Position numbers and translations under genes: made by a program
In this document: piece after piece, positions 19,381-47,716 of the stretch
Position numbering within the stretch: position 1 is the stretch's first letter
How the letters are laid out: the number at the start of each line of letters is the position of its first letter
Assembly (NCBI GenBank): GCA_021234155.1
Contig: JAJEKV010000052.1
Coordinates: 1,301,933-1,365,932, forward strand
DNA length: 64,000 nucleotides
Origin: Isoetes taiwanensis
Taxonomy: Eukaryota > Streptophyta > Lycopodiopsida > Isoetales > Isoetaceae
Direction of reading: 5' to 3'
Notes under the pieces: model-generated
The model's input: the letters and a program-made list of their open reading frames with translations, nothing else
Databases searched by the model: none
Told to the model about the DNA's origin: nothing

Positions 19381-19513
19381 TTAAGCGGGAGCAAATCATC
19401 GAAACGAGAGCAAAAAGAATATTCCTCAAAGATTCCTTTTTTTTTTTACAAAAAAGGGATAAAACGAGGTTAAAGAAAAAATGCATGAAATTCTATTTTG
19501 ACCCCCCAAATGA

Positions 19514-20620: not shown

Positions 20621-20750
20621 AGTGGGGTACAACTTTTGGCGAAGCGTTTAAGCACTTTAAGTGCTGAAACTCGCAGACGTCGAAGCCCGTCACACCCTTC
20701 TCCCTCCTTTTCCCCTGGGCGCGAAAACTCAGATAAGTGTTTCACTGTTG

Positions 20751-21768: not shown

Positions 21769-22400
21769 TCATATAGCTTGTTGTTCATTATTGAGAGGAG
21801 GACAATGTATTCATGATTGCCCCGAAAGGTGCCGAGGGTGCATTTGGGCGAGCTAGGTTTTGGCCATCTTGCGAGGTGCTTCAAATAGTACACCAAAAAG
21901 GATGTGTTAATCCGTCCCGCAATTGAGGTCTCACCCTACAGGGGTTCAAAGAAGGACAATGGCTTCATTTGAAGATGCACTACACCCCAAAAAGTCCTAT
22001 AGGAGTACAAATCAATTGTGACTGATTTGAATGCAACAAAGCAGAACCACCACTACCACCCAAGAAGCCGCCCAAGAAGCTATAGAAGAAGTCAGAACAC
22101 AAAGACCGGTTATAAACACAAAGACTGGTTGTGGAAAAACAACAGACCGAAAGTGTGTACACCGGGAAGCACTTAAGGAAGTTGAGGAAGTAATTCCATT
22201 AGATGAGGGCAACTTGGGTGAATATTTGCCAAAAGGAAAGGGCGTAAGAACAAAGAGGGTAAGCCTGGAGGATGGCAAAGAAGTTGTTCGAGCTACAAGA
22301 AAGAGAACAAGAAGTAGCTATGCTAAAGATGCAGGAAGCAAAGTCTCAATCATGACACCACACCTATCAAAGTGTGTTCTCGAAGAAAATGCGTAATCAG
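21769..22400 (+). other. Short ORF of unknown function
   Basis: After a Cys-rich patch near 21775-21840 (CC, then CIHDCPERCRGC in one frame), an open frame at 22031-22396 encodes a 121-residue Lys/Arg/Glu-rich product. It may be a worn continuation of the coiled-coil gene upstream, but the frame differs and nothing is conserved enough to name. Confidence 0.25.
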
Positions 22401-22675
22401 GCCCTCAAGTTTGTGTGAGCCCGATCTTCAACAAGTGATTGATGCCCTTAATAACCCCGAAAGTCAAGCAGGGCATTGTTGGCCAAGGCCACAACTTAGT
22501 GTTGCTTAAAACATTGAATATTATTGATTTTCTTTTGTTGCATTCACTGTAGGATTACCAGTTGATTCTGTTAGGTCAGAGAATCCTGTTGTTGATACAG
22601 AAAGGTTTCCACATTCAGCCCATTTTTCATTTTCATCTTCATCTATTTATTCATGTAGTAATTTCTGTTGTGTAG

Positions 22676-23430
22676 GTATTCAGGATGTTCCAACGTACTA
22701 AATATTGATTTGGCAGCAAAAGATAAACTCATTGTCTTGGATTTAAATGGTGTGTTGGTAAAAACTTTTGGTGCAAATGAACACATACGCTTGGAATCAG
22801 GATTGACAATGACATACACTAGCAGAAAGAAAGTGATATTCAGATCAGAAGCAGTGTTCTTCTTGAAGACTTTGTTACAGAAGTGTTGTCTTGGTATATG
22901 GTCATCAATGCAACACTCTAATGTAGAAGATGTGCTGCAAGTACTATGTCCAGATTTGAGGGATGGATTTCTATTTGTATGGGGGACAGAAAAAATGTGT
23001 GAAGACCAGTTTTCACCACCCTAACAAACCTGGCTGTCCAGTCATGATGAAGCCACTTGGGAAAATATATGAGTCATACCCAAGATTCAAAGATAAGACT
23101 TTGCTTCTTGATGATTCATTATACAAGTCTTACCTTAGCAGTCCCTGGAAACTTCTGCTAGTACCTACATTCAAGATGGATGTCTGTGATAAAGTGCTAA
23201 CAATACTCACCCCAAAGATAGAAGAAATACTGCAGGCCAAGACTGAGGAAAAAATGAAGTTACTGGTGAAGAACACACACAGATGCAAGCCCTGGTCTAT
23301 GACAGATAGAAAGATTATGAAGCTATGCTTGGAAAGACTTTCTGGAAAACAATTGCAGTTGTGCACCCTTGTGAATGAGGAATTGGAGAAGGTTTATGGT
23401 GATGAACTTTGTCATCCTCCATTACTGTGA
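22676..23430 (+). pseudogene. FCP1/CTD-phosphatase-like HAD protein
   Basis: A likely splice acceptor (TTGTGTAG) precedes 22676. The frame then reads KLIVLDLNGVLV at about 22727-22762, the phosphorylated-Asp motif of FCP1-type HAD phosphatases, with Asn where the second Asp is usual. GIWSSMQHSN and FVWGTEK follow. An A6 run at about 22990 shifts the frame; one base fewer would join it to CPVMMKPLGKIYESYP and LLLDDSLYKSYL (motifs III and IV). The C-terminal part to 23430 is open. Known members dephosphorylate proteins such as the RNA polymerase II tail. It is disabled if the shift is real. Confidence 0.7.
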
Positions 23431-23857
23431 TTAGGCCTGAGACATTTATGATTATTGGCCTGACTGTCATTTATTTAGGCCAAAGAATCCTACACTTTTC
23501 ATGTACCATCTTTATCTTATATTAATTTAAGAATGTTTTTGCTCTATTGTTTATATAGTTCAATGCAGACTTGTCTATAAGTTCTTGCTATATTGTTTAT
23601 ATCTACTTCAATGCTGACTGCAAGGGATGCTTAAAACTTACCAAGTGCTTAAAAAAAAAATTGCCTGCAAGTACTAGTCTGGTATGAGTCTTTATGGCAG
23701 ATACTGCTTACTGTCATGCAGTGACAGTTACTAAGTATGTAGTTGCTTAACGCTAGCAGAAGTGTTAATGTCATCAAGTGCTTACTGTCATGCAGTTAAG
23801 GTGCAGTGCTTACTGTTATGCTATATAACTGTTTAAAGCTAGCTGTTTATTGCATGT
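23431..23857. other. No gene; short dispersed repeats
   Basis: A GTGCTTACTGTYATGCAGT-like motif recurs at about 23700, 23779 and 23809. Nothing coding was seen. Confidence 0.5.
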
Positions 23858-25660
23858 TGTCATGAACCTACTCGAAAACAAGGAAAATACGTGGAAAATA
23901 TGCAAGAAATACGGAAGAAATACGCCAAGATCGGCAAAGAATCTGGTATATGAACAGGAATCAAGAATACAATAGTCCAAGGCAAGTGAATGAATACTGA
24001 GGCGGATGCCTAGAAGGCTCAAGATCTGGCGTTGAACCAGGAACGGTTTGACAAGAAGGAGGTGCCTCCTTATATATCTAGACCAACAAATGATTGCGCT
24101 TACCCAATGGATGAGATCGCGCCAAGTGTCCCACATATGAGAAAGACATGAAGGAATGTCTTCAACAAATATTGGTAGCGACACTTGGCAAGGGTGTGTG
24201 TGACTTGCAACCTGGAAGGTTGTGAGTTCAAACCCCGCCTTGTGCAACTACCTTTTGCATCCGTGTGACGACCCATCTTTGTACATACGAAAGTATAATG
24301 ATCGATGATCTGAATATCTCAGATGGTCGTTACACCATCCCCTCCTACGACGGGGCGACGCAGTCCTCTAAGCCGGGCCGGAGTACTCAAACTTGGCTTG
24401 TTCGACGTTGGTGAAACTCGCAAAATTTTGCCAGCGATTAGTCGATTTCCCGGCAGGTCCCGTGTTCTATCACTTGACGCAGTAACCTTCCCAATCAACA
24501 AAGTAATACAATCGCTGACGGGAGAAACTTGAGTTCGAGAATCTCTAACCTCGAACTCCTCATGATCATCGATCTCGACCGGGTGGTGGAGGTGGAGGTA
24601 CGCGATCCGAAATGGATTCACCATATGGGTTCCAACAAAGACACGCGGAACACCTGGGTGAAGCCAAACCGATGACGGAAGTTCCGCATTTAAAAGCAAG
24701 ATCACCAACTTCGGCCAATGATCCGATAGGGACCTAAGCCACGGGGTAGTCAAAGCTTGTTACAAAGGGCACAGATGTCGGCAAATCCCGACGCGTAAAG
24801 AGCCGACAAGATCACCAACTGCAAAATGAGGGAGCGCCCCCCGACGATGCTGACCGCATGATAACGATAACGTGTTTTGGGCCCGAGAAGATGGTGCCGT
24901 AAGATCATCACGGAGCATCGCGGAGCTTCTGAGCCCGCCCCTCGACCGGAATTGACCGAGTCATATCTAGGAGCAATCAAAGACCACCGGGATGCATGCC
25001 GAAATTAATAAAGAATGGAGTCTAGCCCTGTGGAGGCATGGATGTAATTATTATAAGCAAATTCTGCCAGGGGGTAGCCAATCAACCCAGTCATCCCGGC
25101 CGATAATTGATGAAGCATCGCAGATATCGCTCAAGGGTTTGATTAGTGCGCTTCCACTGTCCATTGGTCTCTCGGATGATGTCCGAAGAGAGCTTAAGCG
25201 TTCCACATGCAAGAGTTGCAATAGACGCTTCCAAAACCGCCACAAATTGAGGGCCGCGTCACGAACAATGTTATCCGGGTAAGCCATGGAGTCGAACCAC
25301 CTCAAGCAAGAGAACATTTGTGGCTTCACTCTAGGAGATAGAAGTGCTGCAAGGAATGAAATGTGCCATCTTGGAAAAACGGTCAACAACAACAAGGATG
25401 ACGCCATGGCCTGGGAGGATGGAAGCTCGACAATAAAATCCATCAAATACTCTTCCAAGGACCGCTGGAACCGGGTAAGCAATGAAGCAGGGCCATGAGG
25501 AAGATGCCTTGAACCTTGGCTCGACAACAGATGTCACAGATCAATAAAGCTTGGGACAGCATGCATTTAAGAGACCTGGCCACCAATACTCTCGACTAAT
25601 AAGTTCAAGAGTCTTGGCTACTCCAAAGTGTCCGGGATGTGGCCGCCTCGCCGCTAACCT
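23858..25660 (-). mobile_element. Truncated Gypsy (chromovirus-like) element with 3' LTR
   Basis: Reading on the minus strand, the 3' LTR spans 24334 down to 23858, starting TGTAACGACC and ending ATGACA. The purine tract AGGAGGGGATGG lies immediately above it, as expected for second-strand priming. Upstream are a degraded integrase (MDFIVELPSS and VVVDRFSKMAHFIP at about 25370-25460) and a chromodomain-like segment (YYFVDWEGY at about 24490-24515). The body stops at about 25660 without reverse transcriptase. Stops and frameshifts are common. High CpG content sets it apart from the neighbouring AT-rich DNA. Confidence 0.8.
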
Positions 25661-26108
25661 CTCGAATCGAGATCCCATCGATCTCTGATATCATAAATTA
25701 TCATCTAATTATGCTGGATGACGCAACTTGATTCATTAAGTACTACATATACACTAGCAAAGCAACCATAGCATCAACATTGCAACCAACATATGATACT
25801 CCGGTCGGCCGGCAAAGGGTGACATAGAGGTAATTTATAGCTCCTATCATTAATTTCCCTTCCTAATTCATAACTTCTAGCCTCGCTTAATCCTTAAAAT
25901 CTCGAGAGCAACTCCTTGTTAAATCCCTTATCATAAATTATCATCTATTGCCTTGGATAGCGTCCAACTCTTGTGACCAACATATGATTTTATTTTAGTT
26001 AACTTTAACCTTAGCTTTTTAACCTTTAACTTTCTTCTGTTGCTATTTTACAAACAATTAACCAATTGTTAACATCTTTACCTTTTTAGTTAAACCTAAA
26101 CCTAACGT
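25661..26108. other. No recognisable gene
   Basis: AT-rich sequence with two copies of a TCATAAATTATCATCT motif, at about 25689 and 25931. No coding similarity was seen. Confidence 0.45.
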
Positions 26109-26975
26109 GACAGGAACGAATTCGGCCTACAGCTGCCGGATATGGCCTCCAGGCCATCGAACCCATGCCAAATCTTCTTAAATCCAACCGATTCTAGCTT
26201 TTCCTAAGATTTCCATGCTAAATCACATCATTTGTGGCCGAAGGAGAAAGTTCTAACTGATTTTTCTTCTGATAGAAATCAGACCAGCAGATGCCGGATC
26301 TGGCATCCAGGCCATTGATTCGGCTTGAAAAGCCCATAAAGTTTCCTGATTTCACTGCCACAAAACATTTTAAGCCATTTCGGCCAGCTTGTGGCCCTAT
26401 TCCGGCCATTCTGGATCAATTTCTTGGCATGCAGACGGAATTAAAAAGGCAAACTTTTGTTGCCGAATCTCATTCTTATTATTCTGAATCAATTTCTTAG
26501 ATCAAATCAGCCATTCCAGGTTCCAAATCGGCCCATTCCAGGTTCCAAATCGGCCCATTCCAGGTTTCTTCCTTAACTTTTTCTTTAAGCATTCAGACAC
26601 CAACAAAAATCTCATGCTTTTCTGCATACTGTCATCTCCTTGACAGTTCTTCACCCTTTTCAAAATCATTCTGCTCAATCCTCATTTCCTATGATGTTTC
26701 CGCTCATTTCTACATTGATTGAATCTAATAAATCATATCCAAGTTCAAGAACTTCCCTAATTCAAAGACGTAGAATGACTTCAATTAAAGAGTTCATAAA
26801 CATGCAGTCTTACTATCCCAGCTCAAGATAAAACATGAATAGATTCCAAACTTATGTAACAAGAACAACCATCACTCTACTCAAATCACAACTTAATCAA
26901 GCACCAAAACCCCAGGTGTAAGTCTTGATCCCCACCTGGAATCCCGCTTGTTGCTTTTTTCAAGGCCCAACACGC
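26109..26975 (-). repeat. Possible 3' LTR of the second Gypsy element
   Basis: Bounded on the minus strand by TGTTGGGCC near 26970 and CCTGTCA near 26109, it lies where the 3' LTR of the Gypsy element at 27190-30654 should be. No second LTR copy was found upstream to confirm it. A 22-base unit containing GGTTCCAAATCGGCCC is repeated about 2.5 times at 26510-26575. Confidence 0.35.
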
Positions 26976-27389
26976 CTCCAGAGCTTTTGCACGTGATTCG
27001 CTCCTTCAGCAATCCCTCTCGCAATCAATCTTTTCCCAATGCTTTTTCTCTCAGTACTTATATTTATTTTTAACCACGTGATTTTTCATCCAGATAATCT
27101 CTACATATAATGACGTATTTTCTCTGCATACATTGATATTTTGATTAATATTCCTTTGCATCTTTTAAATAAAATAATCCACAATTTACCTCAAAATCCT
27201 AGGTCCGTTAGCAGTCTCTCCTCCAAAAATTCAACCCATGTCCTCATGGAAGCATCTCCGGAAACTCAATTAAGAATCCAATTGGCATCTTCCCGTGTGG
27301 CATCTTCCTCGGGACAACCCGCCCCATTGAACCAAAAAATCTACGTATTGTTCGGGCCTCCTTAAGCGACGGGTTTCCTCTCGCGAGAA

Positions 27390-28205
27390 TCACGCTCTGG
27401 TGGGGTACAGAAAGTTCTCCCTGCTTACCAAATCATCGTCCCCCAACATATGGGAAGGATCAAACACATACTTCCTTAAGTTACTCACGTGAAAGACATT
27501 ATGTACTTTCAAGTGCGAGGGTAACTCCAACCTATAAGCCACTTTGCCAATACGTTCCAAAATTTCATACGGACCCACATACCTAGGAGCCCATTTACCT
27601 GCACTTTTAAATGCCAGTGAGCTCTGCTTGGGATTAATCCTCAAGAACACATAATCCCCTTTTTGAAATTCAAGTGGTCTACGTCTCTTATTGGCATACT
27701 GCTTCTGTCTATTTTGTGCCACAGCCAAATTCTGTCGAAGTCTCCTTAGCTGAGCTTCCATGTCCTCCGCTACTTCATTAGCTGCTTCAACATTGCATTG
27801 GGGATCTCTCCAGTTAAGAGGACAATGACACTCCTTACCATACATTGCCTCAAAAGGACTCATTTTGATGTATGCAAACTCAGCCAAATACAAATAAGAA
27901 TCCCATACCTTCGGTTGACTAGGCACATACATTCTGAGCATATCCTCCAAGACTTGATTAACTCGCTCCACTTGGCCATCTGCTTGAGGACGATAAGATG
28001 TACTGGTATATAACTTAGTGCCAATATTTTGAAACAACCCTTGCCAAAATTGGCTCATAAACTTTGTATCCCGATCTGATGAAATAGTGGCCGGCATCCC
28101 ATGCAACCTGAAAATCTCCTTAACAAATAACTTAACAATATCCATTGCCGTAGCAGTAGTCTTCGTGGGCATAAAATGGGCCTGCTTAGTTAATCGATCA
28201 ACCAC
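27390..28205 (-). CDS. Gypsy integrase C-terminal part
   Basis: The frame begins in the integrase core and reads ATISSDRDTKFMS and DGQVERVNQVLEDM, which supply the second Asp and the Glu of the DDE triad. It ends in the GYDVFLR-type linker region with FHVSNLRKYV. The first catalytic Asp lies in the upstream frame (28190-28633), separated by a frameshift at about 28200. Integrase inserts the cDNA into host chromatin. 271 residues are open. Confidence 0.85.
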   Translation of the reverse strand: MVDRLTKQAHFMPTKTTATAMDIVKLFVKEIFRLHGMPATISSDRDTKFMSQFWQGLFQNIGTKLYTSTSYRPQADGQVERVNQVLEDMLRMYVPSQPKVWDSYLYLAEFAYIKMSPFEAMYGKECHCPLNWRDPQCNVEAANEVAEDMEAQLRRLRQNLAVAQNRQKQYANKRRRPLEFQKGDYVFLRINPKQSSLAFKSAGKWAPRYVGPYEILERIGKVAYRLELPSHLKVHNVFHVSNLRKYVFDPSHMLGDDDLVSRENFLYPTRA

Positions 28206-28633
28206 AACGTGTCCGGGGGAAGCTCAACAATGAAGTCCATAGAAATACACTCCCACTTAGAAGATGGAATTACTAAAGGTTGTAATTCTCCAGGCTCTCT
28301 AAACCTTGATGCTTTTACCTTCTGACAAGATAAACACCTAGCCACGTACTCCTTAACCATCTTCTTCTGTCCGGGCCAAAAGAAATTCTGACGCATCTTT
28401 CTCAAAGTTTTATGTACCCCTTGGTGGCCCGCCAACGGACTATCATGTGCTTCATATAGCAACCTCAATATCAACTCCTGATCATTAGGAGTACACATAC
28501 GGCCATTATAAAACAAAACTCCTGTAGACAATGCATACCTCAGAAAATCTTGAGGGTTATCCAACACAGGTGCAAAATATGGATCATTCCTCAACTTGCC
28601 AAGAATATCTGCATCCAATGATGACTTTATCAT
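28190..28633 (-). CDS. Gypsy integrase N-terminal part
   Basis: It contains the H2C2 zinc-binding module (HQGVHKTLRKMRQNFFWPG, then CLSCQK) and SMDFIVELPP with the first catalytic Asp. It then runs out of frame into the downstream integrase part. On the other side it is separated from RNase H by the AT-rich insertion at 28634-28904. Confidence 0.85.
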   Translation of the reverse strand: MIKSSLDADILGKLRNDPYFAPVLDNPQDFLRYALSTGVLFYNGRMCTPNDQELILRLLYEAHDSPLAGHQGVHKTLRKMRQNFFWPGQKKMVKEYVARCLSCQKVKASRFREPGELQPLVIPSSKWECISMDFIVELPPDTLWLID

Positions 28634-28904
28634 CCTCTACCTGCTTCTAAACTATAGAAATGGTGGCGATTGTTTCCTATTTTTCCAACATTTTTATCGA
28701 AACAAATTTAGTGGAATTGGATGTCTTACCATAAAATTGAGGTTTTTACTGTAAAATGTCCATTAATTTGGCGAATTTACTATAATTAGGATGCAATATT
28801 ATCAAATTTTGGCGATTTTATGAAGTTGTTTTAGCGTATGCATCCTAGTAAACCATCGAATCCAAATTTTGAAAAATGGTAAAATATAGCAACTTTACGA
28901 AGTT
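28634..28904. other. 270-base AT-rich insertion in Gypsy pol
   Basis: Coding sequence stops on both sides of this segment. Ten-base inverted repeats (GATGACTTTA at about 28619 and TAAAGTCATC at about 28914) lie at its borders, partly within coding sequence. It has no open frame and contains repeated TTTGGCGA motifs. A MITE is possible but unproven. Confidence 0.4.
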
Positions 28905-29546
28905 TCACACCTTAAAGTCATCACTGTCTGCATCCCATTGCCCTTGTAACACACTAATAGAGGTTAAAAATGACCTTCGAGACAAAGCATCAGCAATCAC
29001 ATTTTCTTTGCCAGGTTGATATTCAATTTCAAAATCATACTCTTCTCTTAATTGCATCCACCTCCTTTGCCTATTATTCAAATATGGCTGTTTTGCAAAA
29101 TACTTCAAATTTTGGTGGTCAGTCTTCAAAAAGAAACGACGACCCAATAAATAATGTCTCCATACCCTTAAGGCATGGATTATGGCCAACATTTCCAAAT
29201 CATGCACTGGGTAATTTTGTTCAGCAGGAGACAATTTACGAGATATATAAGCACAAACTCGGCCCTCCTGCAGCAAGACTCCTCCTACAGCATTCCCAGA
29301 AGCATCAGTGACTACATGGAAGGGTATATTCATGTCTGGAATCCTTAAAATTGGTGCACTAATCAAAACATCCTTTAACTTTTGGAAACTTTCCTGACAA
29401 CTATCAGTCCAATGCAAATCATTCTTCTTACCCAACAAAGAAGTCAAAGGAGCAGCAATCTTTGCAAATTTAGGAACAAATTTGCGATAATATCCCGCTA
29501 ATTCCAAAATGATCTTACTTCTTTCACCGTCTTTGGTGTGGGCCAA
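28905..29546 (-). CDS. Gypsy RNase H region
   Basis: The frame carries the reverse-transcriptase thumb end (LAGYYRKFV), then [46 protein letters not shown] and [10 protein letters not shown]. These are the standard Ty3/gypsy RNase H landmarks with the catalytic Asp and Glu residues present. It overlaps the reverse-transcriptase frame at 29498-29546 in a different register, marking a frameshift. Confidence 0.9.
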
Positions 29547-30433
29547 TCTCTAACTGCCTCAATCTTAGAAGGATCTGGCTCTAATCCCTTTTCTGAAATT
29601 ACATGCCCAAGATATACCAATCTAGTTTGTGCAAAAGAACACTTAGATAGCTTACCATACAACTTTTCTCGTCGCAAAATAGCTAATGTCTGCTTTACAT
29701 GTTCCACATGCTCCTCTAATGTCCTGGAATATACTAAAATATCATCAAAGAAAACCAATATAAACTTATCCAGGAAAGATCGGAATATCCCGTTCATTAG
29801 GCGCATAAAAGTGGCAGGAGCATTTGTCAACCCAAAGGGCATTACAACAAAATCGTAATGTCCGTAGCGTGTCCTAAAGGCAGTCTTGTAAATATCTGTA
29901 TCCTTGATCCGGATCTGATGATATCCAGATCGTAAATCAATTTTTGTGAAGTACTTAGCTTGTCCCAACTGATCAAATAACTCATCAACCCTAGGCAATG
30001 CATATCTATTCTTCACTGTAATCTGGTTAAGCATGCGATAATCAATACATAATCTTAAAGTCCCGTCTTTCTTTTTTACAAACAAAACTGGCGCACCAAA
30101 TGGAGAAACACTCGGCCGTATAAACCCTTGTTTCAATAATTCCGCTAACTGTTTCTTCAATTCAGCCATCTCTAATGCATGAAATCTATATGGTGGCCTT
30201 GATGTGGGTTCAGCCCCAGGAACAAGTTCTATCTCATGATCTACCATTCTATGTGGAGGCAATGCTGTTAATTCTTTAGGAAACACACCAGAGAACTCAT
30301 CCAACACTTTCTGGATCTCAGGAGCAATAGGTTGTTCCTGTAACTCGATGGTACCCAAAAATGCACATCCCATTCTTATGCAACCATTCTTAATCTGTTT
30401 CTTAAAACTTTTCCGGGACAAAGGTGTAACCAC
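29498..30433 (-). CDS. Gypsy reverse transcriptase
   Basis: An open frame of 311 residues. Landmarks in order are [80 protein letters not shown] and FFDDILVYS (the YxDD-box equivalent, about 29740-29752). All catalytic aspartates are present, making this the best preserved retroelement domain in the window. The last residues run into the RNase H frameshift. Confidence 0.93.
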
Positions 30434-30680
30434 TAATGATGAAGGCTATCCTTCCAGCACATACTTAGAATAGCATCATACTTCCCTCTTAGTATCCTTC
30501 AGCACCTTATCTACTGCCTTGTCCGCAGCTGTCTTTTGTTGCGACGCACTCTGCTGCAACACTTGCTGAAATAGCCTGCAAGATATCGGCTACATCAGGA
30601 GCTCCACTAGGGCCAGCTCCTCCTGGGGATCCTCCTGGGGAACTCATCTCTACAAGAATCTAGAACCATAGCAAATATCA

Positions 30681-30884
30681 TCAATAATCAAAAATTTCTC
30701 CTGAAATTTCTCTTATTCTGCGGTCACTCAGTCTCAATTTCTTATTCTTTTTTGAAGGCGAATCTTTAGAAGGGAAATTCTTCTTCATTGCTACCTTCTT
30801 TGCATACAATCTCTGCCTCTGATCTCTCTTCCTTGCTGCATCAATGGCTTTGTAAAGTGAACGGGGAGAGGAATTGGGTTTCAT
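30681..30884 (-). CDS. Small basic ORF, unknown
   Basis: 67 codons from an ATG at 30884, rich in Lys, Arg and Ser (MKPNSSPRSLYKAIDAARKR). It lies between the Gypsy gag start and the DUF7869-like gene. It may be part of the Gypsy leader or 5' LTR region, which was otherwise not identified. No family was recognised. Confidence 0.25.
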   Translation of the reverse strand: MKPNSSPRSLYKAIDAARKRDQRQRLYAKKVAMKKNFPSKDSPSKKNKKLRLSDRRIREISGEIFDY

Positions 30885-31189
30885 CTATCCCAGATTTCTG
30901 TGTATTGCAAAATTGGTGAGGGCAAATTGTTGAATTTCGGTTCAGGCTTAGTCCCTCCATTTTGCTTGAATTCAAGATGGGTTAGCCCGCCATCCACGAA
31001 TATGGCGGGCTACAGCGGCACCATTCAAGCTCATGATTCTCTCAGCCTGTCATTTGACGGGCGCACACCCTACATGTCAATTGATCAATCACGCACGTCG
31101 TGTTTAAAACACGCCGATTTTAAGCACTTGTAAGCGGCGTCCGGACGGTGATTTCTGCTACCCAGTACCGATTTTGCACCCCAATCACA

Positions 31190-33639
31190 ACAGACATATA
31201 TTGCAGTGGACGTTCAAGAGCTTTTTTTCTGTGCTTGGCAAGCTTTCTTCTCTCTGCTGCTTGTTGTTCACGATGTCTGGCAAAGTTCTGCACACAATAT
31301 CTGTAAAAGAAATCAGGTCAAAGCATTTTCTTTAAAATAAGTGAGAGATTGGAGAGCATGAGCTTACTTCTTTCGACCTCTGTCTTTGCAGTTTGTCGTT
31401 CACTCTTTAATTCTGCACACCTTGAGCAAACAGACATTCTATGTCTCCTGAGAATTTTCACAAGACCAAATTCACTTTTCTACAGTCTGATGAAGTGTGA
31501 GTAAGAGATGTGCTGAAGCTGAAGCTAAGCGCAAGTCTCTTTGTACTCATTAAAAACATCTTTTTTGGTGATGTTATCAGTTAAATGATACATGTTGCTG
31601 TTAGGCAGCTTCTCACATGTTTCTTTGAAATATTTCTCCATCCATGACACAGCAGCAAGGGCATGCATGGTTACAACTCTTCTTGGTCCATAATGATCAT
31701 CAATTGCTGGATTTTTGTCCAGTCTTTTGTGTATTCTAGACATTCTGGTGGACCCTAAACGGTGGACAACCATAAAGCATTTCTGGCAAACTTCTTCACG
31801 GTTAATGTAGTGCAAGAAAGTGTTGCGGTCTGGTCTTACATGATAGGCCAAGTAGGCATTCTGGTCAGCCAATGTCATTGAACTGTAGTTGTCTCTAATT
31901 GCTCGTAATTTAGACATGTTAAATTTGTTGATGCAACCCAATGAGCAACATTTACTTCTTAAAAGTCTTCTCATTTTATGCTCGTCCATAAGGTTTCTTC
32001 TTCTTACAGAGGAGATGCTCTCAAACCATAATCCACCTTGAATTTCTTGGTGGACTGGCTAGAGAACGTGTAATCTCGTTGCACCTCGTTGGTGTCTTCA
32101 TCTTCTGAAGAGAGTTCTACTCTGGGGGTGACCTCCTCTACCCTTAGTGGTGTGCTTGTAGAGGAGAACAAACCACGTGAAGCTGTACCTGGATAAGGCG
32201 GAGGCAGAGTGTTGAATGAAGGAGATGGGCCACCATATGATGTGCCAGCGAATGTTGTTGCAGCTTCTTCACAAGGAGTTCGTTCAAACATGTCTCTTAG
32301 AGCCGACTGAAATTCTGCAAACACGGTTGTGTGAAGAGGAGTAGATGCTGCAAGGTCGTCTTCTTTTGTAGTGAAATCATGGTGGGAGAAGCAATGGAGA
32401 ATCTCACAGTCTTCGGAACGTGTTGTATTCCTTGCTTGTGTAAGTGAAGAAGGAGAAACTACAAATGGATGAGGTAGTCTGTTTCGAAAAATTTGCTGAG
32501 GTCGAGCCTTTGTAGTGTCGGGGGATGGTACAAATGGTGGTGGAAGATTGCTACGTGCAACAGGTGAGGCTGTGAAAGGAGGTGGCAGCCGATTTCCTAC
32601 TGGACTTGGAGAGGGTTGGAAAGGTGGTGGCAGTCTACTAGTTACTGGACTCGGAGTGTCTTCGAGAAGCAAGAAAGACCTTGTCGAGGTAGGAGTTGAA
32701 GAAGCATCTCCGTCTTGTATTCCATCTGAAGTAAAGGTACTTGGGCAAACAAAGGGTGGTGGAAGTTTGTTCACGAAGCGGTTAACCATGTTAAACAACT
32801 GCAAATAAAAGTCTTCTCATTTTATGCTCGGCCATAAGGTTTCTTCTTCTTACAGAGGAGATGCTCTCAAACCATAATCCACCTTGAATTTCTTGGTGGA
32901 CTGGCTAGAGAACGTGTAATCTCGTTGCACCTCGTTGGTGTCTTCATCTTCTGAAGAGAGTTCTACTCTGGGGGTGACCTCCTCTACCCTTAGTGGTGTG
33001 CTTGTAGAGGAGAACAAACCACGTGAAGCTGTACCTGGATAAGGCAGAGGCACAGTGTTGAATGGAGGAGATGGGCCACCATATGATGTGCCAGCAAATG
33101 TTGTTGCAGCTTCTTCACAAGGAGTTCGTTCAAACATGTCTCTTAGAGCCGATTGAAATTCTGCAAACCCATATGTCACCACGGTTGTGTGAAGAGGAGG
33201 ATGCTGCAAGGTCGTCTTCTTTTGTAGTGAAATCGTGGTGGGAGAAGCGATGGAGAATCTCATAGTCTTCGGAACGTGTTGTATTCCTTGCTTGTGTAAG
33301 TGAAGAAGGAGAAACTACAAATGGATGAGGTAGTCTGTTTCGAAAAATTTGCTGAGGTCGAGCCTTTGTAGTGTCGGGGGATGGTACAAATGGTGGTGGA
33401 AGATTGCTACGTGCAGGTGGCAGCCGATTTCCTACTGGACTTGGAGAGGGTTGGAAAGGTGGTGGCAGTCTACTAGTTACTGGACTCGGAGTGTCTTCGA
33501 GAAGCAAGAAAGACCTTGTCGAGGTAGGAGTTGAAGAAGCATCTCCGTCTTGTATTCCATCTGAAGTAAAGGTACTTGGGCAAACAAAGGGTGGTGGAAG
33601 TTTGTTCACGAAGCGGTTAACCATGTTAAACAACTGCAA
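31190..33639 (-). pseudogene. DUF7869-like protein, N-terminal half
   Basis: Reading down from 33639: a Pro-rich region with repeated LPPPF motifs (two tandem copies), then from 31989 a Cys-bearing domain (SKCCSLGCINKF, VCQKCFMVVHRLGSTRM) typical of the N-terminus of DUF7869 proteins. An exon at about 31481-31368 (RRHRMSVCSRCAELK) follows, with a GTAAG donor. After a 66-base intron with a CAG acceptor comes an exon from 31300 (KHRKKALERPLQYMSVVI). Coding similarity stops there, just before the DUF7869 core, near the Gypsy element. Such genes are repetitive and probably transposon-borne; function unknown. It is divergent from the methyltransferase gene. Confidence 0.6.
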
Positions 33640-33640
33640 A
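31962..33640. repeat. Tandem duplication, unit about 845 bp
   Basis: 31962-32806 and 32807-33640 are near-identical head-to-tail copies, each holding one LPPPF-rich exon. The second copy lacks a segment encoding one LPPPF unit and has small indels. Low divergence indicates a recent event. Confidence 0.9.
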
Positions 33641-33685
33641 AAATTGTGGACTTGTTAGTAACTCACAAGTCGGTTGGACTAATGA

Positions 33686-33771
33686 TATTCGAGAATATAA
33701 ATGCTATTCCGGAATACTATTTTGTGTGCAGCATTTGTTGTGTGCGTGCATGGATGCTATTCCAGAATACA
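33686..33771. promoter_or_regulatory. Three single TATTCNNGAATA palindromes
   Basis: TATTCGAGAATA at 33686, TATTCCGGAATA at 33705 and TATTCCAGAATA at 33759 lie just above the start of the DUF7869-like gene. A half-site is near 33798. They match the array units at 34024. Confidence 0.75.
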
Positions 33772-34023
33772 CTTGTCCAGTGTGTTTGGACAAGACGTAT
33801 TCCGCATCACATAGAAAACAACAACTGACAGTGGCCTACCTTTAAAAAGGAAATTTGAGCGCCTCAGTTGCATATTCCGCTTTCAGAGTTCTAGCCGCCA
33901 GCCCGAGCGCCTTCCGACCTATATTGATTTGATGTATTCTGATTTACATAGCGAAAATAATGGACATCTAAGCATGTAAAGTACGTAGTACGTCTTTCGT
34001 GTGTTTCCTGATTTACTTTTGTA

Positions 34024-34229
34024 GGGCAAAGTGTATTCCAGAATACACTTTGCCCTTCGCCTGAAGGGCAAAATGTATTCCGGAATACACTTTGCCCTTC
34101 AAGCGAAGAGCAAAGTGTATTCCGGAATACACTTTGCACCTCAATGAGACAGGCAAAGTGTATTCCGGAATACACTTTGCACTTCGCCGGGCAAAGTGTA
34201 TTCCGGAATACACTTTGCCTGTCTCATTG
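34024..34229. repeat. Palindrome array 1 between divergent genes
   Basis: Five tandem palindromes start at 34024, 34066, 34110, 34153 and 34191. Each has the core GTGTATTCCGGAATACAC (one with CCAG, one with ATGTATT) flanked by GCAAA/TTTGC arms of 28-32 bases in total. Spacers are 10-16 bases. The last two units are enclosed by an inverted CAATGAGACAGG pair, giving a larger nested palindrome. The array lies in the shared upstream region of the two divergent genes. Confidence 0.9.
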
Positions 34230-34406
34230 AAAACGCTTGTTTTTTTAGCCTAAACATATCACTTTTTAGCTTAAACAGACCACGTTTTAGGTTAAATATA
34301 CCACTTTTTAGTCCAATTAAAGCATGAAAAATTGAGTTAGAGCGACAATATTTTCGCTTGTTTTCCTATCTTTTGCTGGCCTTTAGGGCAGAAGATTAGG
34401 AAATCT

Positions 34407-34418
34407 TATTCTGGAATA
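34407..34418. promoter_or_regulatory. Single TATTCTGGAATA palindrome
   Basis: It lies in the leader or first intron, 47 bases above the 34462-34464 splice acceptor of the methyltransferase gene. Confidence 0.7.
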
Positions 34419-34464
34419 CAGTTTCGTCTCATTTGATATCTTAACATTGTTGTTTTAAACGTTT

Positions 34465-37400
34465 CAGTGGCAGGCAAGAAGGAAGCAAGAGGGCACCAAA
34501 AAAAACTCTTAAGCTCAGGCGGCCACACCCAATGAAGCAGACTGCTGACACGGACGAGCCTACGATTTATGAAAACTTTCAAACACAATGGTTCGTAACC
34601 AGGGTTGCAGGCGTAAAATACAGCACTCTGACGTTTCTACATGTCTGCAAGAGTGCTGGAAATAAACGGTACGTGGACTCCGAGTTTCTTAACCTGGGGA
34701 CAATAAAAGAAGTCTCCGAGGTTGCCGGACAAGGAGGTCAGGCGGGGAGGCTATCCTTCAAGACCTCCCAGGGATTCATTGTCGTAGAGATCGCAAGCTT
34801 CAGAATTATCAGTGTGCAACCACAACCACTGTACAAATTCATTTCTCACTACTGGACCAAACGAAACCTGGCTACAATAATTAGACAGGTTTGTTCTAAT
34901 ACGAGCGAGGACTTTCCTGTTAGTAAGTCCGAGCAATCAGATGGAGGAAGATCACAATCATCACCTTCTGCTAGTACTTCTGGGAGGGAAACAGATGGAG
35001 GTTCCGAAGAAGAAGAAGCTCAAAACCCCCCAGAGCAGGCCAAGAGACACCATAGCCGCTAAGGAACCAAAGAAGTGGAAAGTACAGCAGCAGGAAATTG
35101 CAGAAATCCCCGAGTAAAGCTAAAAAAACAAAAAGGAAAAGAAAAAGCTCCGGGGTTGCAATAAAAGAAAAGAAGGTTGATAAGACCTCCGAAAGAATGG
35201 AGGTAATAAACAGAGAGAAATTTGTACAAGGGGTGATCTATCTTCCTGTGACTTGCATGAAGCTGCCCCCGAAGAATGAAACTGGTGAAAGGCCGCTTCA
35301 GGTTCGAAAAATTTATGCCGACCACTCAAGGAATCTGAAGGACAGAATTAGGAGCAATCCAAATGCTCATGTGGCCCCAATAGTTGTCCTTGTTGACAGG
35401 GAGCAATGCAAAACCCCCCAGGACTATGACAGAGAAAATGCAGACACATACACTCACTACGTCTTGGGAGGAAATCATAGCTTCAAGGCAAGAAGGCAGC
35501 TGCATAAAGAAAAGAAGAACCCCAGGTACCTCTTCGTCCTGTGTGTCGTTTACTGTGGTCTTACCGACGAAGAAGCAAAAATCGTTGCCAACATCCACAA
35601 CGTTGACAACGAGTACAAACTAAAGATGAGCTTCGTCGACAAGATCCGGTTTATGCACAGGGAGTATATGATATTTAAAGAAAAATATGGAGAAGATTTA
35701 AAGAAACCAGCATACTCTTTAGAACTGAAGGAAGCGTGCGCTGTGGAGTGCTGCCTCAAGTACGATGAGGCTAATAAACGGCAGTCTCTCATACCGCATG
35801 ACAACTAGTTTCAACTAGCCTTCAGAGACGGCAGGGTAAGTTTCTTTTGTATTCTGGAATAACCTTGCTGCCCTCTCACTGACCTCGTTTATTACCGTGC
35901 AGATATAGGACCTACAAAACGAAATTTTTAGCATGTTTGAGCGTGGTGAATTAAAAAGTAAAGGAAAGGTCTCAGAAAAGAAGAAAGGTTCTGATGTCCC
36001 AAAGAAGGAAATGACGATAATAGTCTGGAGAGAAATGCAGGGCTTTACAGACATGGACATACTCGAAAGGCTACTGCAGAAGGTCGTAGATAAAGAATTT
36101 ACGTTGAGGAGATGTCCAAGGAGCTACACAAGTAAGAACAACAGAACTTTCGTTTAAATTTTCCTTCCGTAGCACGAAGTGTATTCCAGAATACACTTCG
36201 GCTTCTGTGGGTGTCCAAAGTGTATTCCGGAATACACTTTGGCTTACAAGCCGAAGCAAAATTGTATTCCGGAATACATTTTTGCTTCACGTTGAAAGCA
36301 AAAGTGTATTCCGGTATACACTTTTGCTTCGGCTTGTAAGCCAAAGTGTATTCCAGAATACACTGGCTTTTTCTTCTTGGTGTTTTCGTTTTTCGGAAAA
36401 CAATACGCACTTAGTTTCATTGTTCTCGATTTCCAGTCAAAAAAACGTTATTACGTGCCAAACATGTTTAATGGAGCAGTTGAACGTGGACAGCTGGGAC
36501 AGGTGTAAAGAGCTCTATCCCATTGCTACATCCGATGAGCGTATTATTCAATACGCTCCAAATTTTGAGGGCTGGGTACGTCGTTTTCCTGTTTTTAATG
36601 TTTTTCCTTTGTGCTGCCGGCGTGACTTCATTTACTAACATGTTTGATCAAAATGACTTTTATTCTATCGTTCATGGGGACTGCACTAAGTTTCCTGGAA
36701 GTATAAAGCCACAAGATTTTACTTTGGTCATCGCAGACTTGCCATATAGGTTTAAGCTAAAGGATATCCGCTACAACGATCAGCCTTTCAAGAACTCAGA
36801 ATTTAATGCTTTCATCGACGGAATTAAGTAGGTTACCACAGCAAAACACTGGCGTCTTGTTGTGTTCCACTCCAGCATGCAATCCGGACTTGTAGAAGCT
36901 ACTTTCAAGAACCACTTCGGTTCTCCTGTGCAAGCCGGTTATGAAAATATGGTCTGGTGAGTCTTCAAATCTTGAGTGCAGTTGAAGCGTTCTTTCTTTC
37001 AAGTTTTGAATCATGGTTGCAATTGTAACCCGTCATGTTCTATTCTGGAATACGTACTTACTATTCTAAAATACGATCTTGCAGGTACAAAACTAATATT
37101 AACTACCATGGTGGAGGACCGATGCTGCTGAGCAAGGTTGAGTATCTCCATGTAGCTTACTGGAGTTTCGACGGGAAGCGTAACATGGAGTACTTCAACA
37201 CAGTAGCCTGCCAAAATTTTTCTAATGTCCTAGAGTTCCCAGCAGTATTATAAAAGCTCCAGGACCCAAGTGCACAAGGTAGAATTGTCAATCATTACTA
37301 GAAGCCACATAAGCTAATCAACCATATTCTGGATATGTTCTCACGTCCAGAAGATTGGGTCCTTGATGCTTTCTCTGGCTCTGGTACAACAATAGCATGT

Positions 37401-37738
37401 GCACTTAAAAAGGGCCGTAATTGTGTTGCTGTTGACATTGATATCAAGATGAGGTTGTCTGCTCTACCAACGCTACCAGATGAAAATCAAGAGTTAGGAG
37501 CCAAATCATCATCAGATTTTGCAAAGATGACATCCTCTGAGATACAGCCTTCTTTTACAAGCTCTCTGGAAGATGAAGCTACCTTTGCAGAGCTCAAAGA
37601 AGTAGCTCTAGCTACTATTCCTGAAGAGACTGTAGACATCAGTAAAGATGAAACAGTGACAAAGGAGCAAACTGCAGAGAAGGACAAAGCTGGGACGAGC
37701 AAACAACATACTGAGGACTTTGATTTAGACCTCTGACT
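34465..37738 (+). pseudogene. ParB-like / N4-N6 DNA methyltransferase gene
   Basis: The first exon (acceptor CAG at 34462-34464) encodes an unrecognised domain and a Ser/Glu-rich linker to 35062. 35098-35808 has a ParB/sulfiredoxin-like fold: a basic start, then VLGGNHSFKARRQL at about 35458-35500. From about 36640 it reads YSIVHGDC and ADLPY (36733-36747, motif IV), and at about 37359 VLDAFSGSGTTIACAL (motif I), then GRNCVAVDID. That is the IV-before-I order of class-beta N4/N6 methylases. Introns with GT-AG ends: 35836-35902, about 36132-36436 and 36957-37084. In-frame stops lie at 35806, 35906, 36829, 37251 and 37299, with frameshifts near 35090, 36100 and 36600. Such ParB-methylase pairs are common in phages and bacteria. 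Confidence 0.75.
36175..36366. repeat. Palindrome array 2 inside an intron
   Basis: Five palindromes start at 36175, 36215, 36256, 36298 and 36341, each centred on TATTCCRGAATA (one reads TATTCCGGTATA). The arms differ from those of array 1 but each pair still matches: CGAAG/CTTCG, CCAAAG/CTTTGG, GCAAAA/TTTTGC. The whole array lies in the intron 36132-36436 of the methyltransferase gene. Arms that co-vary indicate maintenance or copying as dyads. Confidence 0.9.
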
Positions 37739-37762
37739 TATCTTTTACTAAATTATTTACAA

Positions 37763-40378
37763 CTAGTAATGGTGCCCAGCATTGCTGGGCATAATTCTAG
37801 AACCTATAAATGTTAGAACCTGTGCATTTGCATATTGTTGTTCATTGTGTGTTGCACCTTTACCTATAGCTACTTTAAAAGCACTTTGCACCTTAGAAAT
37901 ACTTGGATGTTGTTAATTGTGTGTGTACATAAAATATGAAACTTGTGCTCATGAGTCTTGCTAACTAAATGTGAAACATTACAAAAAATAAAATATGAAC
38001 ATTGCAAAGGATGAAAGATGGGGTCAATGGATTATCTTGAATATATGTATCCCATATGTGCCTATTGTAATGTTGTAGCAAAGCTTTATTTTGAACCATT
38101 AACAAAAGGTGTGTTGCAAAAAACAATAGTAACAGAGAATTTTATCAACCGTGGACCAAATTGATAAGGAGGAGCAATCCATTGTCCCACGCTTTCATTT
38201 CTCAATTAAAGGAGTAAGCAAGCCATTGTTTGACGCTTTTGCTCCCATTAAGGAGTGAGCAAACCATTGTCCCATGCTTCCATTCATTCCCATTCATAAT
38301 TACCATTGTCCCAAGCCAAAAGAAAAAATAAGTTCATTCTTTTTTCTAACATGGCATAGAAGAATACTTGGTGGAATCTCAACATTAAATCATGTTCTTA
38401 GGAGGAATTTCAACATTAAATCATGCTCTCAAAAGACCGGCATAGCGTAATGTTAGTGGAATTTCAACATAATCATGTTCTCAAGTTTGAGTGACACACC
38501 ATCTCATCATAACAGACACTTCCTTTTACAATATATCCGCATTGTAAAACTCACAATTCTTGGTAATTGATATCATAGAGCTACTGTTTTTTATCGTAGG
38601 CCAAGAACATTTCTAATTAGTTTTAAAGAATTTGTGGTAGCCCCGGTAAATGGGTAGAAATTGACGTGGAATCTCCTTCCTCAAGATTGGGATAAGAAAG
38701 GGAGGCATGTTATATAGAAAATTCAAGCAAGTAAACAGAATGCCTTGAAGATACCAATGGCCGCTACCACATGTTCATCCGCTTCGATATGTTTTATTTC
38801 TTCATGCCCACCAAATTTAAGCACCCCATCTACAAAGTTCGTGGTTAAAAAGATTTTGTGAGCAAGTTAGACCTTTTATTTATCTACAACCTAAACAGCC
38901 TCAAAATCTCTCAAGTAGAATTGCTTGGAGGGAACCGCAAGGACCGAGGATATCGATGCCTACTATAAGAACTATACCATCGTTTCATATTAATGAGACC
39001 GCTTTTATGCATTAAAGTCGTAGATGTTTCTGCAATTCCTTAGTCAACTCCTCATTTCTTATATTGAACTGCATGATGTCTAAACCAAAGTTCATATATG
39101 ACCATGTGAACGATATCATACGGTAGAGGTGGTGTATGCCACACAAAGTGATTTTGAACCTGCAAAAATAACAAATTAGGATTTAAAACATGTCATCATC
39201 TAAGATAATTTATGCCTATTTCTGGAATTGAAATTTTTTCTAAATAGCTAGCATGTCTTGCCCTTTGTTCTGCAGAATGCATACATGCAGTTTGTTGCCC
39301 TTATGAAAATTAGTGTGAAGGAAGATGCAAAGAAGAGAACTTACTTGTAGCAGACCTTCATGCGATGCGTGGTACGCTGATGTGTGATAGGCTACATAAT
39401 AGACTTTAAATCAAAAGCATCTTGTTCTCTCAAGAAAAGAGCAAAATTCTGCAATTCATGACATCGTTAAAGGGTAAGTCATAATAATCAGATGGAATTA
39501 CTGCAAGAAATTGTTTGAACTTTAGTTTATGAACAACAAATCTTAACAAACTACCAACACATATAAGATTCCTGGAATGATCTAAGGTGAAATACCTGGA
39601 TGTTATTGTTGTTTCCCCATGTAATCCTCGGTTCGCCATCTTGCCAAGCATGGGCAAATCCAAAATGTAGAAATTATCTCCACATTGTCTGTGTAGAAAC
39701 AAAAGGAGAGAAGATGAGCTTACCACTACAAAATACCTGGCTTTTATTACTGTTTCTGCAAGTTAGCTTGCACTGTCAAAAGCTAAAAGCTCCAGAAAAT
39801 GATAAGATGGAAAATGCACATAATCTCTGCAAAAGAAAAACACAGTTCATTGGCTATTTTTTGGCAGATAGCTTAAGTCACGAATTATCAGAGCATCCTA
39901 ATCTCAGATGGATCACAGAGATGGACAAAGTACTACAGCAGGTGAAGCCTAAATCCATCCTAACCTCAGATGGATCACAGAGATGGGGAAATACTATAGC
40001 AGGTGAAGCCCTTGTATAAAACAAAATCCCGAAAGTAAAGGGACTGCGAAGTAAATCCCGGAAGTGAAAGAGTAAATCCCGGAAGTGAAGGAGTAAAGCT
40101 GAGATTTCAATGCTTGGGAGGAAGATCTTTGCGAGTTCATAGTTTTACCAATAGTAAGATTCACCAAGTTCTGAAGACCACACCTGCCATCGCCCTGCTC
40201 AGCGACCCTCCCCTGCCCTGCCATATCTGCTTTAGACCTTGTCCTGCTCCCCGTGGAAAAAGTGAGCGAGAAGAAATTAGGGCTATCTGGGTCGTCCAAT
40301 TCTTAGGTTAAATCTGAACCGCCCAATTTTTAGGGCGAGGTTGAAGACAGACATACATTAAAATTTTATAATATAGGA
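37763..40378 (-). mobile_element. Non-autonomous Helitron, 2.6 kb
   Basis: Read on the minus strand, it starts TCCTATATTATAAAAT at 40378 after a host A. It ends at 37763 with the hairpin GCCCAGCAATGCTGGGC (37774-37790) followed by ACCATTACTAG and a host T. A TC start, a 3' hairpin close to a CTAG end, and insertion between A and T are the defining Helitron features. No RepHel protein is encoded. Internal open frames (39430-40019 and others) show no recognised domain. It inserted 25 bases after the methyltransferase gene. Confidence 0.82.
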
Positions 40379-40620
40379 TTGGCTAGAAAATACTGCCATA
40401 TTTGATGTACTGAAAGAAATTAATAAAAAAAAGATTCTTATTTTTACGTATTCTTGGTGTATTAATGTCTGGAATTTTGCCATTTTCAAGTGCTCTTTTC
40501 TACAAATGCAAGATCATCACTTCAAAAAAGCCTAAAATGCACGATAAAATATTTTGTTCCACTTGAAATCCCCAACTTCTTTTGAAAATGATCATTTTTT
40601 AAAACCTCGTGTTTTTTTTA

Positions 40621-42165
40621 AGGAAGGAAGGAAGGAAGGAAGGAAGGTTCTTTTATCGTCCACGGAGACCAATCGGTCTATGGGACCCAATACAAAAACG
40701 CAGCAAGCGAATTACTGCCCGGATTAAAAAACCCCCGCCCCGAAGGGTTTTCGAGGGAAAAACCGTGGCAGCAATCAGCCTGCTGACAAACTGTCCTAAC
40801 ATATAAAATGCAGAAACACCCAAATATATACAGTCATGCACCACACCCGTAGTGCCTAATCAGCGGGCAGGCAGGCGGGGGCAAAGGTGACCTCGCAGGT
40901 CCAGTACCTCCTGAATGTACGACCCCAGGGCACGTACTAACGGTGTGTTCATCAGCAAATGCAAGGGCAAGTCCGGCCGCATTAAGGGAGCCGATCCGCC
41001 CGGATCCGGATCGAACGCCGGGCAACTCGAAAGTGTGAGACTCATCCTCAATGGCACCCGTTTGACAAAGATCGACAGAGCTCCGCCCCAAGGGCTCCCC
41101 AATCCACCGCCCGCCTCGATGCGAAGATGGTGGGCACCCGATGCTAATGGAGGCAATGAGTCTCAAGACTTTTCGTGGGCACCGGGAACGCAGTGTAGAG
41201 TTTGGGCCCCGGCTAACACGGGGTTGATGTGCTCCTTGTAATGGGCCATTTTGACCAGCTCTAGAGCTGCCGGGGTCCCGTGAGCTTGCCAAGGAAACAA
41301 GCGCCTAGGGTACTCCCGCAGTCGCCACGACGGCACACAGGTGCTCCACTCGCGACGATCTCGTGCTCCCGCACATTCCATCCGGCGAACCATCGATCTC
41401 TTACCCCTCCAACAAAGCCCTAAGCCGCCGGACCCATGGCCACGGTTGTAAGCCCGGTCGCGGAGTCGAGCATCACCCATAGTAACCACTTTTTCAAAAT
41501 AGACGATGTGTCTATCAAGGGCTGCCACCGGCGCAAGAATCCGGTTCCCGCGCGAATCCGATAGGGGACCAAGGTTTCACCCCAAGTGCCCGCGCCAAAA
41601 ATGCCTTTCTCGCACCTACTCCAAGTCATTCCGTGTCGCCAAAGAAACGACCGGCCCCAAACCTCGACCCCATACTGAAGGGACGGGGCTCGACCGCCGG
41701 GTTCGAACAGATGTGACCGATGGCCCCAATCATAGAGCTCGCCGGGTGATTTGTTCCGCGATGGCATAAAGCGCTTCCAGCCACCTGGCTGTCACCGCAA
41801 GCGGATAGACGCCCCGCCAGAGCGAGGAGGGGAACTCCACCCATAGGTACTTGTAGGTGGGCGTGGACGCCCACAGTCGCCCCCGATATGTGAGTGCAGG
41901 GAGGCATGGGGTGACGTGAAGAGGATATGAGAACCACCCTGGTCTTGGCCAGATTGACGCGCGCATGTCTCAGAGCCCGACAAAAATGTGTCTAGGGCGC
42001 CCGTGAGACCGCGATAGCTTCGGGTGTGGGCCAAGAAAGGCCAACATCGCCCCGCGATAGATGAGCCGGGCGGATGACCCGGGTGCAAAAGCCGTATGCC
42101 ATCCCCCATGCTCAAGAAGTAGAAGGGGCTCTAAGGGAATCTTTGAAACGGGAGTGATGCAACAC
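40621..42165 (-). mobile_element. 5'-truncated LINE with (GGAAG)n tail
   Basis: The 3' end is at left: a (GGAAG)n tail at 40621-40647, then CCGTGGACG shared with two other LINE ends in this window. The minus translation to 42165 gives the C-terminal part of a LINE reverse transcriptase (a YLWVEF motif and Trp/Arg-rich thumb or connection) with many stops. The body is GC-rich and CpG-rich compared with its surroundings. The endonuclease and catalytic RT motifs are absent. Confidence 0.7.
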
Positions 42166-47581: not shown

Positions 47582-47716
47582 AATAAGGGACTTATCTCAG
47601 AAACACGGGCAGTTTTTGACACAATGCCATTGTAGAAACTTGGATGATTCTCAAAGCGTTTTTGATAGATAATCCTTCTATACGCATGTGGCTATGCAGT
47701 ACAGTAGATGCTAAAA

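Follow-up and report, generated by a model that had tools for sequence, protein, structure and literature searches.

The window analysed here is a stretch of 64,000 nucleotides from the lycopod Isoetes taiwanensis (contig JAJEKV010000052.1, positions 1,301,933 to 1,365,932 of the forward strand), and all coordinates below count from its first letter. It carries a copy of a transposable element, at 19367..40623, in which two genes lie head to head: a transposase gene of the DUF7869 type on the minus strand and, on the plus strand, a gene of five exons encoding a protein with a ParB-like domain and a DNA methylase domain. A short palindrome recurs between the two genes and in introns of the second. 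A preliminary description, confined to 31190..37738, had proposed a mobile element at this place; the element is present there and its true extent is wider.

Gene organisation of the element

The three motifs by which the methylase gene had been recognised, VLGGNHSFKAR, ADLPY and DAFSGSGTT, are found in that order on the plus strand between 35.4 and 37.4 kb. Exon 1 (34532..35835) encodes an N-terminal domain without a family name followed by the ParB-like domain (YVLGGNHSFKARRQL). In the window copy its frame is broken between about 34.9 and 35.06 kb and it has a stop at 35806; several other copies have it as one open frame of about 470-480 codons, and in four loci taken from the genome search with the ParB-like exon it is open over 473 (L039), 478 (L037), 568 (L038) and 348 (L040) codons. 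Intron 1 (35836..35902), with one palindrome, is followed by exon 2 (35903..36131, stop at 35906), by intron 2 (36132..36436), which holds a 42-bp palindrome array at 36177-36364, the second in the element, and by exon 3 (36437..36575). Exon 4 (36640..36956, stop at 36829) carries motif IV of the methylase (DLPY). The 11 other copies read all have about 120-135 bp between exon 3 and position 36640 that the window copy lacks, and with them the acceptor of intron 3 is gone from it. Intron 4 (36957..37084) again contains palindromes, and exon 5 (37085..37736, stops at 37251 and 37299) carries motifs X and I (DAFSGSGTT). In the window, introns 1, 2 and 4 begin with GT and end with AG. The exon order and the introns recur in other copies, which bears out the earlier suggestion of plant introns.

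The methylase part is assigned to the Pfam family N6_N4_Mtase (PF01555) with an E-value of 1.8e-15 for the spliced read-through, 2.8e-9 for exon 5 alone and 1e-17 for the copy C50. The spliced read-through also matches the DNA methyltransferase family phrog_67 (3.6e-17), the methylase part matches the CcrM structure (PDB 6pbd, 1.5e-7), and the NCBIfam CcrM model is matched by C50 with an E-value of 1.8e-11, far below the model's own cut-off. The motif order IV-X-I together with PF01555 agrees with a class beta N6_N4 DNA methylase. CcrM and the class beta N6-adenine methylases have the same order of motifs; the Isoetes protein differs from CcrM in having DLPY for DPPY, in its fused ParB-like and N-terminal domains and in its eukaryotic exons. 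A search of 5.8 billion proteins gave no relative of the methylase gene at an E-value of 0.01. A tblastn search of phages gave 830 records; the 20 that were listed align with the methylase part alone, with identities of 21-27%.

The transposase gene is in two pieces in the window, both on the minus strand. The 5' half (31183..33654) has in-frame TAG codons at 31525-31527 and 31480-31482 and contains a tandem duplication of about 850 bp (31960..33643; copies 31960-32809 and 32806-33643, 94.8% identical). The 3' half (19517..20602), with frame breaks and stops, encodes the QLDN and GHTHDQID motifs and an acidic C-terminus, and matches the DUF7869 family (PF25273) at about 20.08-20.30 kb (E-value 1e-19) and again, read in a different frame, at 20.39-20.54 kb (0.0036). 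Between the halves lies a later insertion of 10,577 bp (20606..31182), bounded by an imperfect terminal inverted repeat (TIR) of 21 bp, GGGTGCAAAATCGGTACTGGG (18/21 identical), and by a 3-bp target site duplication (TSD) of the ANT type, ATT, at 20603-20605 and 31183-31185. It breaks the transposase reading ...YMSVVI|DGMD... and has thereby displaced the Pfam domain to about 20.1-20.5 kb. The divergent DUF7869 gene of the preliminary description is a real gene, of which the exons within 31190..37738 match no DUF7869 profile, PF25273 lying beyond the insertion. The VVIDGMD motif is unbroken in 9 of 18 other loci, and a strict DNA pattern found the insertion site uninterrupted in three of the six copies tried (C37, C61 and C23).

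The sole database relative of the transposase gene among the 5.8 billion proteins is P0001, with 72% identity over 80% of the query (E-value 4.1e-98). DUF7869 is a family to which curation has assigned no function. VVIDGMD, LQLDN and GHTHDQID recur across loci, and these motifs, with the place of the gene in the element, suggest that the DUF7869 protein is an RNase-H-like transposase. An AlphaFold model of P0001 with one window row had a mean predicted local distance difference test score (pLDDT) of 44 and was not used. The N-terminal part (31324-32025, minus strand) shows a weak match to the RFX DNA-binding domain (0.0009-0.0033) when Q or W is read at the stops; P0001 itself does not show this match. 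The 10.6-kb insertion contains, as judged by eye, a decayed Ty3 retrotransposon at 27.4-30.6 kb on the minus strand, and one plus-strand open reading frame (ORF) in it matches NIF phosphatase (1e-5).

Ends, copies and maintenance of the transposon

The ends of the element have been placed at the points where the homology between copies stops, and these reveal the terminal repeats AACAAGATTGCGTATTAAACGGGAG and AACACGATTGCAAATTAAACGGGAG, which are not detectable from the window alone. The left end is intact in the window, with its TIR AACAAGATTGCATATTAAGCGGGAG at 19367..19391 on the plus strand. No right TIR was found in the window, the copy being cut about 53 bp before the terminal repeat, at an AAGG microsatellite (40623). 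Among 18 loci looked at for this, nine copies have both ends resolved, and eight of these show a perfect TSD of 4 bp. The TSDs are ATAT (C23), AGTA (C37), TTTG (C39), CACA (C50) and GTGG (C30) in complete copies and TATA (C29), ATTA (C35) and ATAC (C4b) in short derivatives; C61 has the imperfect pair TTTA/TCTA, with three of four bases matching. The six complete copies are 8119-11180 bp long. The length of the TSD agrees with the Sola superfamily, Sola2 being described with a 4-bp TSD, AWWT (PMC3627910); most of the targets here are not AWWT. By its structure, multicopy state, TSD and gene pair the element is a cut-and-paste DNA transposon of a vascular plant, and the proposal of a mobile element of eukaryotes that carries an N6/N4-type methylase of its own is upheld. 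A second later insertion of about 2.6 kb (37760..40366), in which terminal repeats were looked for and none found, lies between the methylase gene and the right end. The window copy is one that decayed by C-to-T change and was split by later insertions.

The 18 other loci that were compared were read around palindrome sites, on 17 of the 19 contigs listed for the palindrome search; the set excludes C2, a 3-kb stretch with one methylase exon, and C17, which was not seen. The N-terminal part of the transposase lies head to head with that of the methylase in 13 of the 18, so that the gene pair, which the preliminary description had proposed to look for elsewhere, does recur. Ten of the 13 also have the ParB-like exon and methylase exons (C23, C30, C50, C39, C21, C37, C3, C1, C54 and C61). 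In the other three, the methylase is reduced to a piece of 52 residues (C46), some 5 kb separates the two gene starts and the stretch holds no other methylase exon (C18), or the locus is truncated by the end of the stretch (C4a). C62 has methylase exons only. C29, C35 and C4b are derivatives of 3176-3778 bp without intact genes, which have kept both ends, 4-bp TSDs and 8-11 core palindromes; C35 and C4b retain a remnant of methylase exon 3, and C29 has no gene match at 1e-4. C64 has the left end and the palindromes in common with these three, with no end pair resolved. The bacterial type of the methylase might have suggested two unrelated genes adjacent by chance, or a bacterial contaminant. 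The recurring pair, the introns and the Mb-sized contigs with plant-type neighbours refute this explanation, to which we give practically no credence, and the objection of contamination raised at the outset does not apply.

In C21:11000-31000 three transposase genes (L010, L016 and L017) lie in a row with palindromes upstream of each, and a methylase gene is found beside only one of them.

A genome search with the ParB-like exon gave 3394 first-look candidates; the best 150, which were scored, all have E-values below 1e-107 and identities of 78-100%, and by hand count 36 of them have a stop inside the match. The published assembly (1658.30 Mb, made up of 204 scaffolds plus 909 unplaced contigs; PMC8566536) is described as built from nanopore, Illumina and Bionano data, and since it is nanopore-based, single-base frame breaks may be assembly errors.

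The ratio of nonsynonymous to synonymous substitution (dN/dS) was estimated by the Nei-Gojobori method with Jukes-Cantor correction, leaving out exon rows that cover less than 85% of the query. Estimates for the methylase were obtained in 21 of 54 pairs, at 0.02-0.44, dS being saturated in the rest. In exon 5 the ratio is 0.04 for C23/C50 (dN 0.084, dS 2.06) and 0.05, 0.17 and 0.38 for the window copy (WIN) against C50, C3 and C23; in exon 4 it is 0.08 for WIN/C23, and in exon 3 0.44 for WIN/C62, with three changes in 46 codons, and 0.03 for C54/C62. The N-terminal part of the transposase gives 0.08-0.31, all six pairs being estimable. In the ParB exon dS is saturated in all six pairs and the rows C50 and C61 (two of four, entering five of the six pairs) are frame-broken, so that dN there is not meaningful and no claim of selection is drawn from this exon. 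A diverged subfamily, L024 (C4:10000-19999), has an open ParB-like exon only 51% identical to that of the window, which points the same way as maintenance. Taken together, the estimates indicate that the methylase is maintained along with the transposase, its protein being kept by selection across diverged subfamilies. The word decayed holds for the window copy and not for the many other copies that have open exons.

In the window copy, the exons of the methylase gene together with the 5' exon of the transposase contain seven in-frame TAG or TAA codons and no TGA. A code with TAA and TAG read as glutamine could be imagined from the lack of TGA and from one TAG at the glutamine of a QKP motif. 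At three of the seven places the other copies mostly encode tryptophan and at four glutamine, with a few other residues or stops in single copies; their exons are open under the standard code, and TGA stops do occur among the genome matches of the ParB-like exon. Recoding has hence been rejected as having a negligible probability; the stops are explained by decay through C-to-T changes on either strand.

Palindromes and possible self-marking

The palindrome has the core TATTCYRGAATA and a longer form, GTATTCCGGAATAC. With up to two mismatches allowed, the window has 15 occurrences of the longer form where 0.09 would be expected, and every one of them lies within 33704-37053, so that the palindromes noticed earlier between the genes are real. 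The intergenic region (33704..34419) has single sites at 33704, 33757 and 34406 and a 42-bp array at 34023-34219. In the genome (1,658,258,908 bases, 1110 contigs) GTGTATTCCGGAATACAC occurs exactly 2585 times and its reversed control not once. Core sites are confined to the element in four complete copies and the window (18/18, 11/11, 8/8, 13/13 and 14/14). The 185 core sites of 19 loci have the centres CCGG (84), CCAG (56), CTGG (38) and CTAG (7), which fit decay of a central CpG. In intron 1 the identity is 0.86 in palindrome columns and 0.49 in the rest over all 10 rows; when gaps are counted the values are 0.83 and 0.45, and a set of eight rows gave 0.85 and 0.52. Rows with a full core number 7 of 10 in intron 1, all 10 in intron 2, none of 12 in intron 3 and 7 of 11 in intron 4.

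Some copies (C30, C39, C21 and C62) have shortened cores such as TATTCGGAATA; in C30 (L006), C39 (L008) and C21 (L010) one or two central bases are lacking (TATTCGGAATA, TATTCGAATA) and there are many frame breaks. These may be systematic nanopore miscalls at modified bases, in which case they would hint at modification.

The retention of palindromes, ends and TSDs in derivatives without intact genes suggests that the palindromes act in cis for a factor supplied in trans. We propose that the element is a plant transposon with a DUF7869 transposase and a ParB-like methylase, of which the ParB-like part would recognise GTATTCCGGAATAC as bacterial ParB does parS, at candidate sites in the introns and in the promoter region that the two genes share. 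The methylase would mark adenines or N4-cytosines at or around the palindromes on copies of the family, gene-less derivatives included. From the sequences compared we put the probability of this reading at about 0.6. The mark might label the element as self, giving the transposase access or protecting the element from host silencing; anti-silencing, transposase targeting and copy recognition are possible benefits. The fuller form of the proposal, in which the protein loads at parS-like palindromes and writes N6-methyladenine (6mA) or N4-methylcytosine (4mC) over its own family and its gene-less parasites in a vascular-plant nuclear genome, is put forward tentatively, as somewhat doubtful.

The same transposon and methylase could also be combined with palindromes of another function, as transposase sites or enhancers of the subterminal-repeat type or as promoter or insulator sites, the methylase acting elsewhere. 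It would suit such a role that 6 of the 19 loci (WIN, C23, C37, C21, C46 and C1) have two sites, spaced 53-54 bp, upstream of the transposase start, and that the three resolved derivatives have arrays about 370-500 bp inside the left end. Many sites of the complete copies are, however, central, in methylase introns, and not subterminal, and we regard this explanation as rather unlikely. That the palindromes are functionless, slippage-prone hairpin repeats which have spread is suggested by the 42-bp arrays with their variable arms and by the modest extra pairing of the arms, which is above what column composition predicts at distances 3, 7 and 8 (z 4.6-4.9), with z below 2 for over half of the 25 distances. 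Intron 4, too, where the palindromes lack excess conservation, would suit such repeats. The 12-bp core is nevertheless kept while the arms vary, and in intron 1 the palindrome stands at one place among copies of which many pairs are saturated, or nearly so, at synonymous sites, which makes functionless repeats improbable.

Several observations weigh against our proposal of a ParB-like methylase acting at the palindromes. The palindrome itself served to select the loci, which come from the contigs that stood first in the list. The full core is absent from 3 of 10 rows of intron 1, 4 of 11 of intron 4 and all 12 of intron 3, and in intron 4, where the palindromes occupy different aligned positions, palindrome columns and the rest have the same identity (0.55). 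The consensus of motif IV in class beta N6_N4 methylases is (D/N/S)PP(Y/F/W), as in DPPY or SPPY. The motif here is DLPY in WIN, C23, C50, C39, L038 and L039 and DIPY in L040, a departure from this consensus.

The assignment of the ParB domain is built on weak matches, all below curated cut-offs: TIGR03764 (5 of 6 members, best 0.00048), the 'ParB-like partition protein' families phrog_1033 (3 of 6, 0.0042) and phrog_723 (4 of 6, 0.024), and DUF6551 (5 of 6, 0.014). A family of no stated function, phrog_30771, matched 4 of 6 members (best 0.0013), and one member matched the unrelated family IgA0_D2 at 0.00059, so that single matches at such a level can be noise. A profile search of the PDB with the ParB-like part gave no ParB chain, and tblastn gave no match to the window ParB exon in phages and none to the L024 exon in plasmids; in the 5.8 billion proteins the exon has no relative at an E-value of 1. 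The CTP-binding motif of ParB is GxxRxxA, and GGNHSFKAR has S in place of its arginine; the G, G, H and S are invariant in all six members. An AlphaFold model of the ParB exon alone, with a mean pLDDT of 38, was not used. The support for a ParB-like domain is thus consistent but weak.

Some further features lie in the window outside the element. The stretches 17412-19367 and 42464-54280 share collinear blocks of 78-93% identity, which are near-contiguous in the former; in the latter they extend across about 11 kb and are separated by gaps of 1.0-2.8 kb. The explanation is either a processed copy made from a sequence with introns or nested insertions within a repeat. On the minus strand, ORFs resembling by eye a LINE (long interspersed nuclear element) reverse transcriptase are found at 45205-47691 and a lectin receptor kinase at 61083-63505. 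Rfam, tRNA and viral-contig scans gave no matches.

Relation to known systems and significance

ParB-methylase transposons are known from algae, and hence the Isoetes element is not new in kind, contrary to the preliminary description, which had taken it as possibly undescribed. The giant transposon Sola1-1_Ec32 of the brown alga Ectocarpus is likewise described as combining a ParB-like domain and an N4/N6 methylase in one protein, encoded on the strand opposite the transposase as here, and proteins of this sort are proposed there to bind the transposon that encodes them and to mark it (Dinatale et al., PMC12477816). It is 21.5 kb long, against 8.1-11.2 kb for the complete copies here, the proteins being compared by description; the term 'palindrom' is absent from the main text of that article, and palindromes are present in the Isoetes element. 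ParB/methylase accessory proteins in transposons are also reported, in two works cited in PMC12477816, from green algae and from the red alga Bostrychia (Petroll 2025), the hosts again being algae. Two Mariner elements described by Bao and Jurka in 2013 are also cut-and-paste transposons with a methylase, of other methylase classes and accompanied by an endonuclease; 'ParB' is absent from the text of that paper (PMC3627910). Judged by title and the start of the abstract, no ParB-methylase transposon of a vascular plant is found among the literature matches listed. As far as searched, therefore, the palindrome system and the vascular-plant host are the new parts.

Whether 6mA and 4mC are real DNA marks in plants is disputed. 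In the plant genome analysed here, the ParB-like exon of a methylase gene of bacterial type has matches at 150 loci or more, the gene shows purifying selection in the copies tested, and a candidate target site has 2585 exact occurrences of 18 bp. This layout is suited to testing whether a transposon marks its own DNA. If the proposal is true, this would be a transposon that turns an epigenetic mark to its own use instead of being subjected to it.

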